From positions 1 to 37,345 of the forward strand of contig RHFB01000033.1 of assembly GCA_003724285.1 (NCBI GenBank): 37,345 bases of DNA, in the 5' to 3' direction. The notes under the pieces were generated by a model. It saw only the letters and a program-made list of their open reading frames with translations, searched no databases and was not told where the DNA came from. A program made the translations under genes and the position numbers. This stretch comes from Nitrosopumilus sp. H13. Lineage in GTDB: Archaea > Thermoproteota > Nitrososphaeria > Nitrososphaerales > Nitrosopumilaceae. Shown here one piece after another: positions 3,099-34,070 of the stretch (position 1 is its first letter; each line of letters starts with the position of its first letter).

Positions 3099-4268
3099 AT
3101 GAGGGTCAAAATAGCCACGCGAAAATCAAGCCATACAAAAAAATTCGCAAAGCTGATCCTTGATGACGGCACAGTCCTTGAAGGGCAGGGATTTGGCAGT
3201 TCTGGCACCATCTTTGGCGAGATTGTCTTTAATACGGGGATGGTCGGATATGTAGAGGCCCTCACAGACCCCTCATACAGCGGCCAGATACTCACCCTCA
3301 CATACCCGCTTGTGGGCAATTACGGCGTGCCCGACCCGGAGGCGACTGACGCTGACGGCATCTCAAAATACTTTGAATCAGACAAAATCCATGCAAGGGG
3401 GCTTGTGGTGCACGAGCTCTCGCTGACTGCAAGCCACTGGAACCTTGCAATGACCCTTGATGAGTGGATGCACAAGGAGGGGATTCCGGGGATCTCCGGC
3501 ATTGACACGAGGACCCTGACCAAAAAGCTCCGCACGGGCGGCGTCATGATGGCCGCCCTGGCAGTGTCAGATACGGAGATTGACACAGGAAGCGTAAAAA
3601 AAGAGCTTGGCTCTGCTACGGGATACTCGGCAGAGCAGTTCATGGACGAGATATCCACAAAAGAGGCGCGCGCATTTGGGGACGGGAGGGAATGCATCGC
3701 AGTAATTGACACGGGCGCAAAAAACGCAATACTGCGCAACATCCGGGATCTGGGGTACAGGGCGGTCTTGCTGCCGTGGAACTCGACATATGAGGAGGTA
3801 ATCTCGCACAATCCAAGCGGCGTGGTTATCAGCAGCGGTCCTGGGGATCCGCAAAAATGCCCGGACACGATAGAGACTACAAAAATGCTGATTGCAAACA
3901 ATGTTCCAACGCTTGGCATCTGCCTTGGCGCGCAGATAATCGGCATAGCAGGCAACACTAAAACTTACAAGCTAAAGTACGGCCACCGCGGGCAGAACAA
4001 GCCGTGCATCAACCTTGAGAACAACCAGGTGTATGTGACGAGCCAGAACCACGGATACGGCATTACCCCAGAGTCCCTTGAAGAATCGGACTTTGACTTG
4101 TGGTTTACAAACGCAGACGACAAGACAGTCGAGGGGATACGGCACAAGACGCAGCGATGCGTCGCCGTGCAGTTCCACCCAGAGGCCTCGCCGGGCCCGT
4201 ACGACTGCCGCTTCGTCTTTGAAGAGCTCAAACGCCTTGTGGAGGAGGGATCGACTGCCAAAAAATGA
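3099..4268 (+). CDS. carA: Carbamoyl-phosphate synthase small (glutaminase) subunit
   Basis: CarA hydrolyses glutamine and channels ammonia to CarB for carbamoyl phosphate, feeding pyrimidine and arginine synthesis. The 389-residue length is normal. The N-terminal CPSase small-chain domain is clear (ILDDGTVLEGQGFG; EIVFNTGMVGY). The C-terminal class I glutamine amidotransferase domain has the nucleophile elbow GICLGAQ, the conserved VTSQNHGY segment, and the His-Glu pair in QFHPEASPGP. The protein starts MRVKIATRKSSHTKKFAKLIL, with a basic N-terminal extension of about 15 residues before the usual first strand. It overlaps the inferred start of carB by 14 nt, and a GGAGGAGGGA Shine-Dalgarno-like run sits inside its 3' end. 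Confidence 0.96.
   Translation: MRVKIATRKSSHTKKFAKLILDDGTVLEGQGFGSSGTIFGEIVFNTGMVGYVEALTDPSYSGQILTLTYPLVGNYGVPDPEATDADGISKYFESDKIHARGLVVHELSLTASHWNLAMTLDEWMHKEGIPGISGIDTRTLTKKLRTGGVMMAALAVSDTEIDTGSVKKELGSATGYSAEQFMDEISTKEARAFGDGRECIAVIDTGAKNAILRNIRDLGYRAVLLPWNSTYEEVISHNPSGVVISSGPGDPQKCPDTIETTKMLIANNVPTLGICLGAQIIGIAGNTKTYKLKYGHRGQNKPCINLENNQVYVTSQNHGYGITPESLEESDFDLWFTNADDKTVEGIRHKTQRCVAVQFHPEASPGPYDCRFVFEELKRLVEEGSTAKK
4241..4250 (+). promoter_or_regulatory. Shine-Dalgarno-like site for carB, pointing to a CUG start
   Basis: GGAGGAGGGA lies within the end of carA. The expected CarB N-terminus (PKNETLKKILVLGSGAIKIG) is in frame 1, and the codon where its Met should be is CTG at 4255, about 6 nt after the GGAGG core. 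The only nearby conventional alternative is TTG 4273, about 25 nt away. The sequence therefore suggests CUG initiation or a shorter protein from TTG. Confidence 0.45.
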
Positions 4269-7200
4269 GACGTTGAAAAAAATTCTCGTGCTCGGCAGCG
4301 GGGCAATAAAAATCGGAGAAGCCGGCGAAAGCCGCTAAAACGGCCGCCAGTTTGACTACTCCGGAAGCCAGTGCCTCAAAGCCATCCGAGAAGATGGGCT
4401 CCAAAGCGTCCTTATCAACCCAAACATTGCGACAATCCAGACGGATACGAGGTTTGCAGACAGGGTATACCTTCTTCCGGTGACGCCCGAGTACGTCGAA
4501 TCGATAATCGAAAAGGAGCGGCCAGACGGAATCATGCTTGCATACGGGGGCCAGACTGCCCTTAACTGCGGCGTCAATCTAGACGGAGCAGGCGTGCTCA
4601 AAAAGTACGGAGTCGGCGTACTTGGAACCCAGATCCCGGGAATACAGAGCACAGAAGACCGGCAGCTCTTCAAGGATTCCATGAAGGAGGCAGGCGTGCC
4701 CGTGCTGAAGAGCCAGACCGTGACCAACTTTGAGGACGCAAAAAATGCAGCAGAGGCCCTCTCGTATCCTGTGATAGTCAGGGTCGCCTATACCCTTGGA
4801 GGGCGCGGCGGCGGCGTGGCATACAACGAGATAGAGCTGCACGAGATAGTAGAGCGCGGCCTCAAGGCAAGCCTCGTAGGCCAGGTATTAATTGAAGAGT
4901 ACATCGGCCACTGGAAGCAGATCGAGTACGAGGTGATGCAGGACTATGACGGCAATAATGTGATAGTGTGCAACATGGAAAACGTCCTGTCCATGAAGGT
5001 GCACACCGGTGACAACATCGTAGTGGCCCCGTCGCAGACCATAGACAACTCTGAATACCACATGCTGCGCTCCGCCGCCCTTCGCGCAACAAAGCACGTC
5101 GGAATAGTGGGCGAGTGCAACATCCAGTACGCCCTGGCCCCTGACTCTGACAAGTACGCGGCAATAGAGATAAACCCGCGCCTTTCGCGCTCCTCTGCGC
5201 TTGCAAGCAAGGCCACGGGATACCCGCTTGCATACATGTCCGCCAAGATCGGGATCGGATACGGCCTCCCGGAACTGGTAAACAGAATCACAAAAAACAC
5301 CACCGCCTGCTTTGAGCCCTCCCTTGACTATATAGTCTGCAAGCACCCGCGCTGGGACTTTGCAAAGTTTGAGCTGGTAAACCGGCGCCTCGGGCCCACC
5401 ATGAAGTCAGTCGGAGAGGTGATGGCAATAGGCCGTACGTTTGAAGAGTCGCTCCAAAAGTCGATACGCATGCTAGATATTGGCAATGACGGGCTCGTAC
5501 TAAACAGGTCTGACGGCTCCAAATACACGGAAGAAGAGATCGAAGACAAGCTTGCGCATCATGACGACATGATACTGTACTATGTGGCAGTGGCCCTGAA
5601 GATGGGGATCACAGTGGATCGGATATACCGGCTCTCCTCGATAGATCCGTGGTTTATAGAAAAGATTGCAAACATTGTCGCAGTCGAGTCCAAGCTGGCC
5701 CACTCGGAGCTTGACTCTGCCATGCTCTGGGAGGCAAAAAAGACGGGCTTTTCAGACAGGCAGATAGCCCGGGCCAAGGACAAGAGCCCTGATGAGGTGC
5801 GCAGCCTGAGAAAAAAGCTCGGCATCGTGCCTGCAGTAAAGCAGATAGACACGCTTGCAGCAGAGTGGCCTGCCGTGACTAACTATCTCTACATGACATA
5901 CGGGGGCGACTCGCACGATGTCGAGGTTCCAGACAGCAGGGGAATCGTGGTGGTGGGCGCAGGCCCGTACCGCATTGGCAGCAGCGTCGAGTTTGACTGG
6001 GGGACGGTAAACATGGTGTGGGGCCTGCAAGAAAACGGCGAGAAGAACATCACCGTGGTCAACTGCAATCCCGAGACCGTCTCTACTGACTATGACATCT
6101 GCACCCGGCTCTACTTTGAGGAGCTCACGCAGGAGCGGATACTGGACATTACAGAGTTTGAGAATCCAAAGGGCGTGATCACGTGCGTCGGGGGCCAGAC
6201 TGCAAACAACCTCACTCCCGGGCTTGCCGAGCGCGGAGTCCGCATACTGGGCACCGGGGCAGATGACGTGGACAGGGCCGAGAACCGCTCAAAGTTTAGC
6301 GCAGAGCTTGACAAGCTGCACATACAGCAGCCGCTGTGGCAGGCGTTTTCTGACCTTGCCGGCGCCAAGACCTTTGCGCACAAGGTGGGGTATCCGGTGA
6401 TTGTGAGGCCCTCGTACGTCTTGTCCGGGGCGGCCATGAAGGTCGTCTGGTCCCAGAACGAGCTCAAGAAATATGTGCAAGACGCCACCGATGTCTCGCC
6501 TGACCATCCCGTAGTGATATCAAAGTTCATGCTCGACTCGCTTGAAGTAGACGTCGACGGGGTCTGCAACGGAAAGCAGGTGATAATAGGCGCGATTGTA
6601 GAGCACATTGACAGCGCGGGAGTCCATTCCGGGGACGCAATGATGTGCATCCCGCCGTGGCGCCTCAACAACCGCATAATCGAGACCATCAACGACTATA
6701 CGCGAAAAATTGCGCTCACGTTTAACATCTGCGGCCCGTTCAACCTGCAGTTTCTAGTCCATGACTCCCATGTGTACGTGATAGAGCTCAACATCCGGGC
6801 GTCGCGCTCGATGCCGTTTGTCTCAAAGCTGGTAAGGACAAACCTCATCTCACTTGCATCCCGGGCGATTCTCGGCAGGACGCTGCCTGACATACCTGCA
6901 GACAAGTGGAAGAGGATACGCAACCACGGCATAAAGGTGCCCCAGTTCTCCTTTATGCAGCTTGACGGGGCAGACATTGCCCTGGGAGTGGAGATGCAGT
7001 CTACCGGCGAGGCCGCCTGCTTTGGAGACAGCTTTTATGACGCCCTCTCAAAGGGGCTGACCTCGGTGGGATACAACCTGCCCGAGCGCGGGACTGCGCT
7101 GGTAACGGTGGGAGGCGCTCCAAACAAGGAAAAGCTGCTGCCTGCGATAGCCCTGCTCAAGGGGCTCGGATTTGAGATACTTGCGACAGAGCACACCGCG

Positions 7201-7524
7201 GAATTCTTTGAGGAAAAGATAGGCCAGGTGAAAATAGTCCACAAGATATCAGAGCCTGAGCGAAAGCCAAACATCTCTGATCTGCTCTATGAGCGCAAGA
7301 TCGACTTTATCATCAACATTCCCAGCACCTCTACGCTTGAAAAGTACGTCGGGATGCTTGATGACGAGTACCAGATACGGCGCAAGGCGCTCGAGCTTGG
7401 CATCCCGGTGCTTACCACGATAGAGCTTGCAGACTCTTTTGTAAAGACGCTAGAGTGGCTCCGGGACAACGACACCACAAGGGAGCCGCTAGCCCCCTAT
7501 GATCCCCTAGACGACCCTGTCTAG
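4255..7524 (+). CDS. carB: Carbamoyl-phosphate synthase large subunit, interrupted by an in-frame UAA near its N-terminus
   Basis: CarB makes carbamoyl phosphate from bicarbonate, ammonia and two ATP. Both ATP-grasp halves are intact (GGQTALNCGVNLD and TLGGRGGGVAYN in the first; GGQTANNLTPGLAERG and PSYVLSGAAMKVVW in the second), as is the C-terminal MGS-like regulatory domain (ILATEHTAEFFEEKIG). The ORF track starts only at GTG 4480 (1014 aa), but homology continues in the same frame to 4255. That upstream part encodes the conserved pre-ATP-grasp segment LVLGSGAIKIGEAGE, then SR-stop-NGRQ, then FDYSGSQCLKAIRED. Removing 21 nt gives the family's usual GEAGEFDYSG. Use of GTG 4480 would lose about 75 residues of the conserved N-terminal fold. 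RNA splicing, readthrough, internal initiation, gene decay or an assembly error are all open; the rest of the gene shows no decay. Confidence 0.85.
4328..4350 (+). other. 21-nt in-frame insertion with UAA inside carB (span covers three equivalent registers)
   Basis: Deleting 4328-4348, 4329-4349 or 4330-4350 always restores Gly-Glu-Phe-Asp at a conserved site. The segment contains TAA at 4336-4338. Two competing hairpins can be drawn: CGGC-GAAA-GCCG (4323-4334, GNRA-type loop) and GCCG-CTAAAA-CGGC (4331-4344, stop codon in the loop). In the 4328-4348 register a 4-bp helix AAGC/GUUU (one G-U pair) flanked by 3-nt bulges can be drawn, reminiscent of an archaeal bulge-helix-bulge site. A convincing outer helix is missing. 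Confidence 0.6.
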
Positions 7525-33162: not shown

Positions 33163-33537
33163 ATGCAGGATCCAAATCCGATTCCATGGGGTGCTCAGGA
33201 CAGGTTTCAGGCGCATTTCATCGTGAGAAAAGATCCGGGCACTTTTAAGGACTATGTCGCAAGGACGCGCCTGACCACCAGGGGCCACTTTGCCGCAAAG
33301 ACAGTCGACAAGGTGGGCTGGAACGGGGCAGGCAAGCTGGCAGTCGCGCTTGATGCCGATTCAGAGCTCAACGCAATGATTGCAAAACAGACAGTCCATG
33401 ACGCCACTATCTACATCGAGCCCACAGAGGGGGTCGTGCGCATACGCAGCAAGTGGGATAATCATATCGCGTTTGGGATCACAAAGGATCTCTACGAGAT
33501 TTATGACCGCATCGCCGGCCACATAAAGTCCATCTAG
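33163..33537 (+). CDS. Protein of unknown function co-transcribed with the preceding ORF
   Basis: The 124-residue protein starts MQDPNPIPWGAQDRFQAHFI. It is a mixed alpha/beta chain: TFKDYVARTRLTTRGHFAAK, KLAVALDADSELNAMIAKQT as strand-helix, then a beta-rich segment TIYIEPTEGVVRIRSKWDNH and a final helix DLYEIYDRIAGHI. No catalytic motif is recognised. It lies 4 nt after the previous stop and lacks its own promoter. Its stop shares CTAG with the convergent endA stop. Confidence 0.68.
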   Translation: MQDPNPIPWGAQDRFQAHFIVRKDPGTFKDYVARTRLTTRGHFAAKTVDKVGWNGAGKLAVALDADSELNAMIAKQTVHDATIYIEPTEGVVRIRSKWDNHIAFGITKDLYEIYDRIAGHIKSI

Positions 33538-34070
33538 GCCTTCCACCAGTCAAGTGCCAGATATTCCACCCCTTTGCCGCTTGGCACGGCAAAGATAAAC
33601 TGCTTTTTAACCGTGGTTGCAAGCCTGCCTGCAAGTACCACCCCGGTGGACGTGACCGGCTCGCTCCGGTTGTAGACCCTGACCAGGTACGGCGCATGGT
33701 CTATTCCGGGCCCCTTTTCATACACTGCAAAGTCGCAGCCAAACTTTATCCCCGGATTTACAATGTACCCCTTGTCTCTAAAGTCCTTGTAGACCATGTA
33801 CTTTTTCTCAAAGTCATAGTGCTCGTTTTTGCATATCTCGCCTAATTTCTTTGCATCCATCTTTTTCTTTGCCCTGTGTATGGTGATCTTTTTGTTCTCT
33901 AGCAGGTACAGCCCTTCGATCAAATCCAGAACCAGCGGCGCGTCAATCTCCTCTACCTTTGGCTTTGGAATGCCTATCGGCTTGCCATAGTATCCCCCAC
34001 CGAACAGCTTTTTGGAATCCTCAATGTCCCATACGATGATCCTGTTCTCTATCAGCTCGCCTTTGATCAT
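33534..34070 (-). CDS. endA: tRNA-splicing endonuclease (EndA), homotetramer-type length
   Basis: The 178-residue protein matches archaeal tRNA intron endonuclease. An N-terminal domain contains LVLDLIEGLYLLENKKITIH. The C-terminal catalytic domain has GYIVNPGIKFGCDFAVYEKGPG, with catalytic Tyr (about 117), His125 in GIDHAPYLV, and Lys 155 or 156 in TTVKKQFIFA, positions close to the Methanocaldococcus jannaschii triad. It cuts bulge-helix-bulge motifs in pre-tRNA and, in some archaea, pre-rRNA and mRNA introns. The length is that of an alpha-type subunit; a partner beta subunit elsewhere cannot be excluded. The ATG at 34070 is 25 nt from a TATA-like box. It overlaps the convergent gene by 4 nt. 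Its relevance to the interrupted carB is discussed in the findings. Confidence 0.94.
   Translation of the reverse strand: MIKGELIENRIIVWDIEDSKKLFGGGYYGKPIGIPKPKVEEIDAPLVLDLIEGLYLLENKKITIHRAKKKMDAKKLGEICKNEHYDFEKKYMVYKDFRDKGYIVNPGIKFGCDFAVYEKGPGIDHAPYLVRVYNRSEPVTSTGVVLAGRLATTVKKQFIFAVPSGKGVEYLALDWWKA

Follow-up and report, generated by a model that had tools for sequence, protein, structure and literature searches.

The carB gene of Nitrosopumilus sp. H13 raises a question: how can a full-length CarB be produced from a reading frame that is interrupted by a stop codon? We analyzed a stretch of 37,345 nt (the window) from the draft genome of this archaeon (1.18 Mb, 92 contigs, 84% complete). 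The genome holds one full-length carB, encoding the carbamoyl-phosphate synthase large chain (E = 0), with one TAA. The nearest named relatives of this CarB are Nitrosopumilus MAGs, with 85–87% identity. Frame 1 from position 4255 was translated as LPKNETLKKILVLGSGAIKIGEAGE-SR*NGRQ-FDYSGSQ... and is open thereafter to 7524. The insert, AGCCGCTAAAACGGCCGCCAG, occupies 21 nt (4330–4350) between ...GEAGE and FDYSG... and carries an in-frame TAA at 4336–4338. When the insert was removed, the CarB N-terminus aligned gapless over the junction with solved CPSases, E. coli CarB and human CPS1 among them. Exact removal restored the conserved frame, as expected of an archaeal BHB pre-mRNA intron. Standard ORF calling placed the carB start at GTG 4480. 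Judged from its position and an upstream GGAGG, the start codon is probably CTG 4255–4257.

A sequence-only reading of this DNA had described the 21-nt interruption with its UAA, the intact remainder of carB, and three equivalent registers within 4328–4350 that each restore Glu-Phe. All of this was confirmed, and the BHB rule, under which each bulge is cut after its second nucleotide (PMC2738675), selects 4330–4350 among the registers. That reading listed RNA excision, stop readthrough, translational bypassing, internal initiation and a strain-specific lesion without choosing one, and the BHB motif was unnamed in it. RNA excision is now strongly supported by BHB geometry, covariation and exon codon constraint, and the other four options did not stand. 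The features of the locus are collected in Table 1.

Table 1. Features of the carB locus and the predicted cleaving enzyme in the window; a slash within a bulge marks the predicted cut
Feature	Position	Strand	Basis or remark
carA (carbamoyl-phosphate synthase small chain)	3099–4268	+	ORF; Pfam CPSase_sm_chain, GATase; 3' end overlaps carB start
carB exon 1	4255–4329	+	Codes LPKNETLKKILVLGSGAIKIGEAGE; translation, conserved in relatives
Outer helix 5' strand CGGAG (exon 1)	4314–4318	+	Pairs with CUCCG 4359–4363
Central 4-bp helix 5' strand GGCG (exon 1)	4324–4327	+	Conserved geometry, covariation
Bulge 1, AA/A	4328–4330	+	Predicted 5' splice site 4329/4330; A[AG]/[AU] in 52/52 segments
Predicted 21-nt BHB intron AGCCGCUAAAACGGCCGCCAG	4330–4350	+	In-frame UAA 4336–4338; translation, relatives, fold, covariance model
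Inner hairpin GCCG-CUAAAA-CGGC of intron	4331–4344	+	Covariation, helix 3: double-sided changes at 3/4 pairs, 100% of cells paired
Central helix 3' strand CGCC (intron 3' end)	4345–4348	+	Pairs with exon GGCG; covariation
Bulge 2, AG/U	4349–4351	+	Predicted 3' splice site 4350/4351; A[AGU]/U in 52/52 segments
carB exon 2 (remainder of large chain)	4351–7524	+	ORF, translation, Pfam
Outer helix 3' strand CUCCG (exon 2)	4359–4363	+	Pairs with CGGAG 4314–4318
EndA catalytic subunit (tRNA-splicing endonuclease), predicted cleaving enzyme	33534–34070	-	PF01974, PF02778

To compare relatives, carB was collected from the same genus, family and order and from named GTDB records; 229 loci were parsed, giving 185 distinct genes. 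The alignment with relatives that the sequence-only reading had proposed revealed an insert at exactly the same junction in 93 of the 185 distinct genes of the order Nitrososphaerales (111 loci fetched) and none in the other 92. The inserts are 20–40 nt long, mostly 21 or 22, and always lie at the same Glu/Phe junction. A length divisible by three, which had been taken as telling, proved incidental, as relatives have inserts of 20, 22, 23, 26 nt and so on. Insert-bearing genes were found in families f1, f3, f5, f8, f10, f11 and f12 of the order, and named carriers include Ca. Nitrosotenuis chungbukensis MY2 (L101), Nitrosarchaeum sp. BD3 (L082) and Nitrosopumilus sp. b1 (L094).

Several records in this collection were unusual. 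L051, a MAG labelled Candidatus Anammoxibacter (Planctomycetota), has a carB of Nitrosopumilus type and was probably misbinned. L079 and L081 are labelled Nitrososphaeraceae, yet they fall within Nitrosopumilaceae on the CarB tree. L233 (G069, family f13) is a carB without insert that has two point nonsense codons (IN*DF and II*KE), from a sequencing error or in a decaying copy. The draft genome G043 (family f3) has two carB-like genes, on C49 and C32; the C49 copy (L160) has the intron, and the other is L234.

Structure statistics were calculated with 52 distinct insert-bearing BHB segments and 72 insert-free ones. A 4-bp exon–intron helix was found with a 3-nt bulge at either splice site, in relaxed form. 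In relatives, GGCG of exon 1 pairs with CGYY or a similar sequence at the 3' end of the insert; the outermost (fourth) pair of this central helix is G.A rather than standard in 10 of the 52 segments. By geometry alone, cuts placed after the second nucleotide of each bulge excise the insert exactly and give Glu-Phe in all 52. All five pairs of the outer helix are standard in 50/52 insert-bearing segments vs 10/72 insert-free ones; two f12 sequences are without a complete outer helix. The outer side of the central helix is an asymmetric loop, with about 5 unpaired nt on the 3' side vs 1 nt on the 5' side. As this side lacks a clean 3-nt bulge, the carB motif is a relaxed BHB.

Three elements appear in the MFE fold of the window RNA: the inner hairpin, the central helix and the 5' bulge of 3 nt. 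MFE folds were only moderately better than those of shuffled sequences (z from -0.8 to -2.1), and the fold of L006 is locally unlike a BHB. A generic BHB-hairpin scan of the window gave 42 and 60 matches per strand vs 54–64 in Markov shuffles, no excess, and it missed the carB motif, in which an internal loop displaces the outer helix. Geometry by itself is therefore a weak argument, and the case depends on the comparison of relatives. The carB site was the sole match of a covariance model for this motif in the window, at 79 bits. Among 398 genomes of the phylum, matches of at least 58 bits occurred only within the order. The weaker matches outside it were mostly 34 nt long, the size of an uninterrupted carB, and a few of 32–47 nt with about 20–23 bits were taken as chance. 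Rfam models gave zero matches in the window or in 4150–4550. A group I or group II self-splicing intron was rejected: the insert is 20–40 nt long vs a catalytic core of hundreds of nucleotides, and it has no Rfam match.

The letters of the inner hairpin vary freely while its pairing persists, and apart from the pairing the insert is hypervariable. Standard pairs made up 98.3% of inner-helix cells vs 80% after shuffling of the 3' arms, with a maximum of 86% in 5000 shuffles. Among 38 distinct aligned sequences, 36 cells had compensatory changes on both sides vs 11.1 in shuffled data, and 0 of 500 shuffles were as high; slid registers fell far short of the compensatory count of the true register. 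In L207, exon and intron changed together, giving GGUG paired with CACC.

The codons of the exon flanks were constrained as well. Compared with expectations from each gene's own usage, insert-bearing segments used TCC for Ser in 40/52 (6.4 expected), GGC for Gly in 51/52 (13.3 expected), GGA for Gly in 49/52 (17.3 expected) and ATC for Ile in 47/51 (16.0 expected). This helix codon preference is gone in insert-free genes, with TCC in 7/72 vs 7.3 expected. On these counts, synonymous sites of the exon flanks are frozen in insert-bearing genes, apparently to keep the outer helix, and drift elsewhere. Covariation and exon codon constraint together indicated that the structure is under selection. 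An RNA structure spanning two exons predicts such codon constraint; neither selection on the protein nor a mechanism at the level of translation does so.

These data were used to weigh other explanations. A pseudogene, a strain-specific lesion or an assembly error might be suspected in a draft genome of 92 contigs and 84% completeness. The rest of carB is intact, however, and independent assemblies, including single-contig genomes and isolates, have the same site with compensatory changes. With half of the order's sampled carB genes bearing an insert at the same Glu/Phe junction, the insert is neither a lesion nor an assembly error, and the probability of this explanation is negligible. Just as negligible is stop-codon readthrough, in which the seven codons would be translated to give a CarB with seven extra residues. 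It would suit the window insert, which is in frame with one UAA. The length is not a multiple of three in 24 of the 52 segments, however, and the others have in-frame stops at varying places; the hypervariability outside the pairing also speaks against it. In programmed translational bypassing, the ribosome would hop over the insert, with the hairpin and the stop codon as hop signals, as in T4 gene 60 and the mitochondrial byp elements of certain yeasts. As a short insert that has a hairpin and, in many cases, a stop close to the take-off codon, it superficially resembles known hops. In known hops, the peptidyl-tRNA re-pairs with a matching landing codon. Here the take-off codon is GAA or GAG, whereas the codon before UUY is CAA, UAA, CAG, AAA, CAU, UAU, AAG, AAU or UAG, never one for Glu, so hopping by the known re-pairing rule is impossible. 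In none of the 52 segments could one tRNA read both the take-off and the landing codon, and bypassing predicts neither exon–intron pairing nor the strict 3-4-3 geometry. We consider bypassing very improbable.

Internal initiation at GTG 4480 or a similar downstream codon, with exon 1 as relic DNA, would agree with the start from standard ORF calling. Against it, exon 1 has no internal stop, its KILVLGSGAIKIGEAGE core hardly varies, and a protein shortened in this way would be without the N-terminus present in solved CPSases. The nonsynonymous/synonymous ratio of exon 1 is 0.58 in insert-bearing genes vs 0.55 in insert-free ones. As it evolves like exon 1 of insert-free genes, exon 1 is still translated, and a start downstream is extremely improbable. 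The hairpin could instead be a regulatory element of the mRNA, such as an RNase site or an attenuator, that is cleaved and left unligated or is spliced conditionally, the unspliced message being a regulated off-state. The retention of a stop in every in-frame insert, through different codons, would fit this, as would the CTG or other weak codon at the start position of most insert-bearing genes. The exact frame-restoring geometry argues instead that ligation yields a functional mRNA, and the link with the start codon is not significant after tree correction. We give this explanation, too, an extremely small probability.

The insert is thus very likely an archaeal BHB intron in the carB pre-mRNA, the splicing itself being deduced from comparative sequence data. 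The carB transcript would fold into the GGCG/CGCC central helix with bulges AA/A and AG/U, the inner hairpin and the outer CGGAG/CUCCG helix. EndA, predicted to be of the alpha2-beta2 type, would cut between nucleotides 2 and 3 of each bulge and release 21 nt. A ligase, most likely RtcB, would then join ...GAA/UUU.... The spliced message would be translated to full-length CarB with Glu-Phe at the junction and a spanning peptide ...IGEAGEFDYSGSQ..., and the unspliced message would give a peptide of about 27 residues. EndA cleavage, joining by RtcB or another ligase and CarB synthesis from spliced mRNA are all probable steps. If retained, the inserts always disrupt translation, by a stop in 28/52 segments and a frameshift in 24/52. 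All 28 segments with a multiple-of-three insert have their in-frame stop via different codons and in different places, as if selected to block translation.

The genome encodes the expected machinery. The closest solved relatives of the EndA catalytic subunit are 3p1z_B, 2cv8_A and 3ajv_B, and its HAPYLV and TTVKKQ segments align to solved crenarchaeal enzymes. Its gene lies about 26 kb from carB on the same contig. A second EndA paralogue, without the HAPYLV and TTVKKQ segments, is on another contig. The two subunit genes are consistent with the alpha2-beta2 EndA reported for Thaumarchaeota (PMC4090602), a type reported to accept relaxed BHBs (PMC6379350). RtcB ligase is also encoded. Tested by gene content, the host thus has EndA alpha, a second paralogue and RtcB, and acceptance of non-tRNA or relaxed BHBs by its EndA is predicted. 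tRNA-Met(CAU) and tRNA-Tyr(GUA) have anticodon-loop introns of 40 and 32 nt, respectively.

A CarB tree of 139 genes requires at least 14 changes of intron state, of which 9 or more fall on well-supported branches. The insert-free genes L111 and L159 are nested within insert-bearing groups. This nesting, together with presence across several families, suggests an old intron with many losses, most obvious in marine Nitrosopumilus and Nitrosopelagicus, although the tree method alone cannot separate gain from loss.

The codon at the carB start position differed between the two classes of genes. In insert-bearing genes it is CTG in 36 of 65, or CTA, ATA, TCG and others, and these carB genes often overlap carA; in insert-free genes it is ATG, TTG or GTG in 69 of 72. 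By raw counts, the start is non-canonical in 48/65 insert-bearing vs 3/72 insert-free genes, and after tree correction the association with intron presence was not significant (median p 0.22). The carB intron might be a control point, where EndA and RtcB, by splicing, would gate carbamoyl-phosphate synthesis. Weak or non-canonical starts (CTG, perhaps AUA or AUC) and the retained stop would keep ribosomes off the unspliced message, and repeated losses would mark lineages that dropped the control. We regard this idea as speculative and rather unlikely.

If splicing is confirmed, carB would be the second archaeal protein-coding gene with a conserved BHB intron, after cbf5, and a central biosynthetic gene would carry a short intron across a large archaeal order that includes ammonia oxidisers. 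The intron would have been overlooked since annotation pipelines report such a carB as truncated or as a pseudogene, and many of these genomes probably have a wrong carB annotation. Natural carB genes with and without the intron, and introns that differ in length and sequence, could serve to examine how introns are gained and lost and how specific EndA is in mesophiles. The gene also offers a case for how splicing outpaces coupled translation in a nucleus-free cell.

Our literature search on carbamoyl/carB with introns, BHB and Thaumarchaeota found no prior report; subscription papers and sequence-record annotations lay outside it, and an earlier mention is possible. Archaeal mRNA introns have been described as "confined" to cbf5 in some Crenarchaeota (PMC4810243). 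In the literature searched, the described mRNA BHB cases are only cbf5 and one haloarchaeal 5'UTR, and carB looks like a new, widespread case of a very rare kind. The cbf5 pre-mRNA BHB introns of Crenarchaeota are 16–44 nt long (Watanabe 2002; Yokobori 2009, PMC2738675), and no cbf5 intron is listed there for Nitrosopumilus or Cenarchaeum (PMC2738675). The carB introns, of 20–40 nt, are in another gene, one of pyrimidine and arginine synthesis, and in another group, the Nitrososphaerales, including mesophilic ammonia oxidisers. A further difference is that cbf5 splicing was verified by cDNA, whereas carB splicing is predicted here from sequence. The mRNA BHB of HVO_1309 from Haloferax volcanii (PMC7714728) is, as predicted for carB, an EndA substrate outside tRNA and rRNA; it lies in the 5'UTR, whereas the carB insert is within the coding frame. 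Archaeal pre-tRNA introns at position 37/38, of which this genome has at least two, share the motif geometry and the presumed enzymes with carB. The carB site, however, has no tRNA body, and its exon helix is made of the codons for GEAGE and FDYSG. Bypass elements of T4 gene 60 and the mitochondrial byps are likewise short hairpin inserts with a stop inside a conserved frame. Unlike them, carB is without matching take-off and landing codons, and it has exon–insert pairing and BHB geometry.
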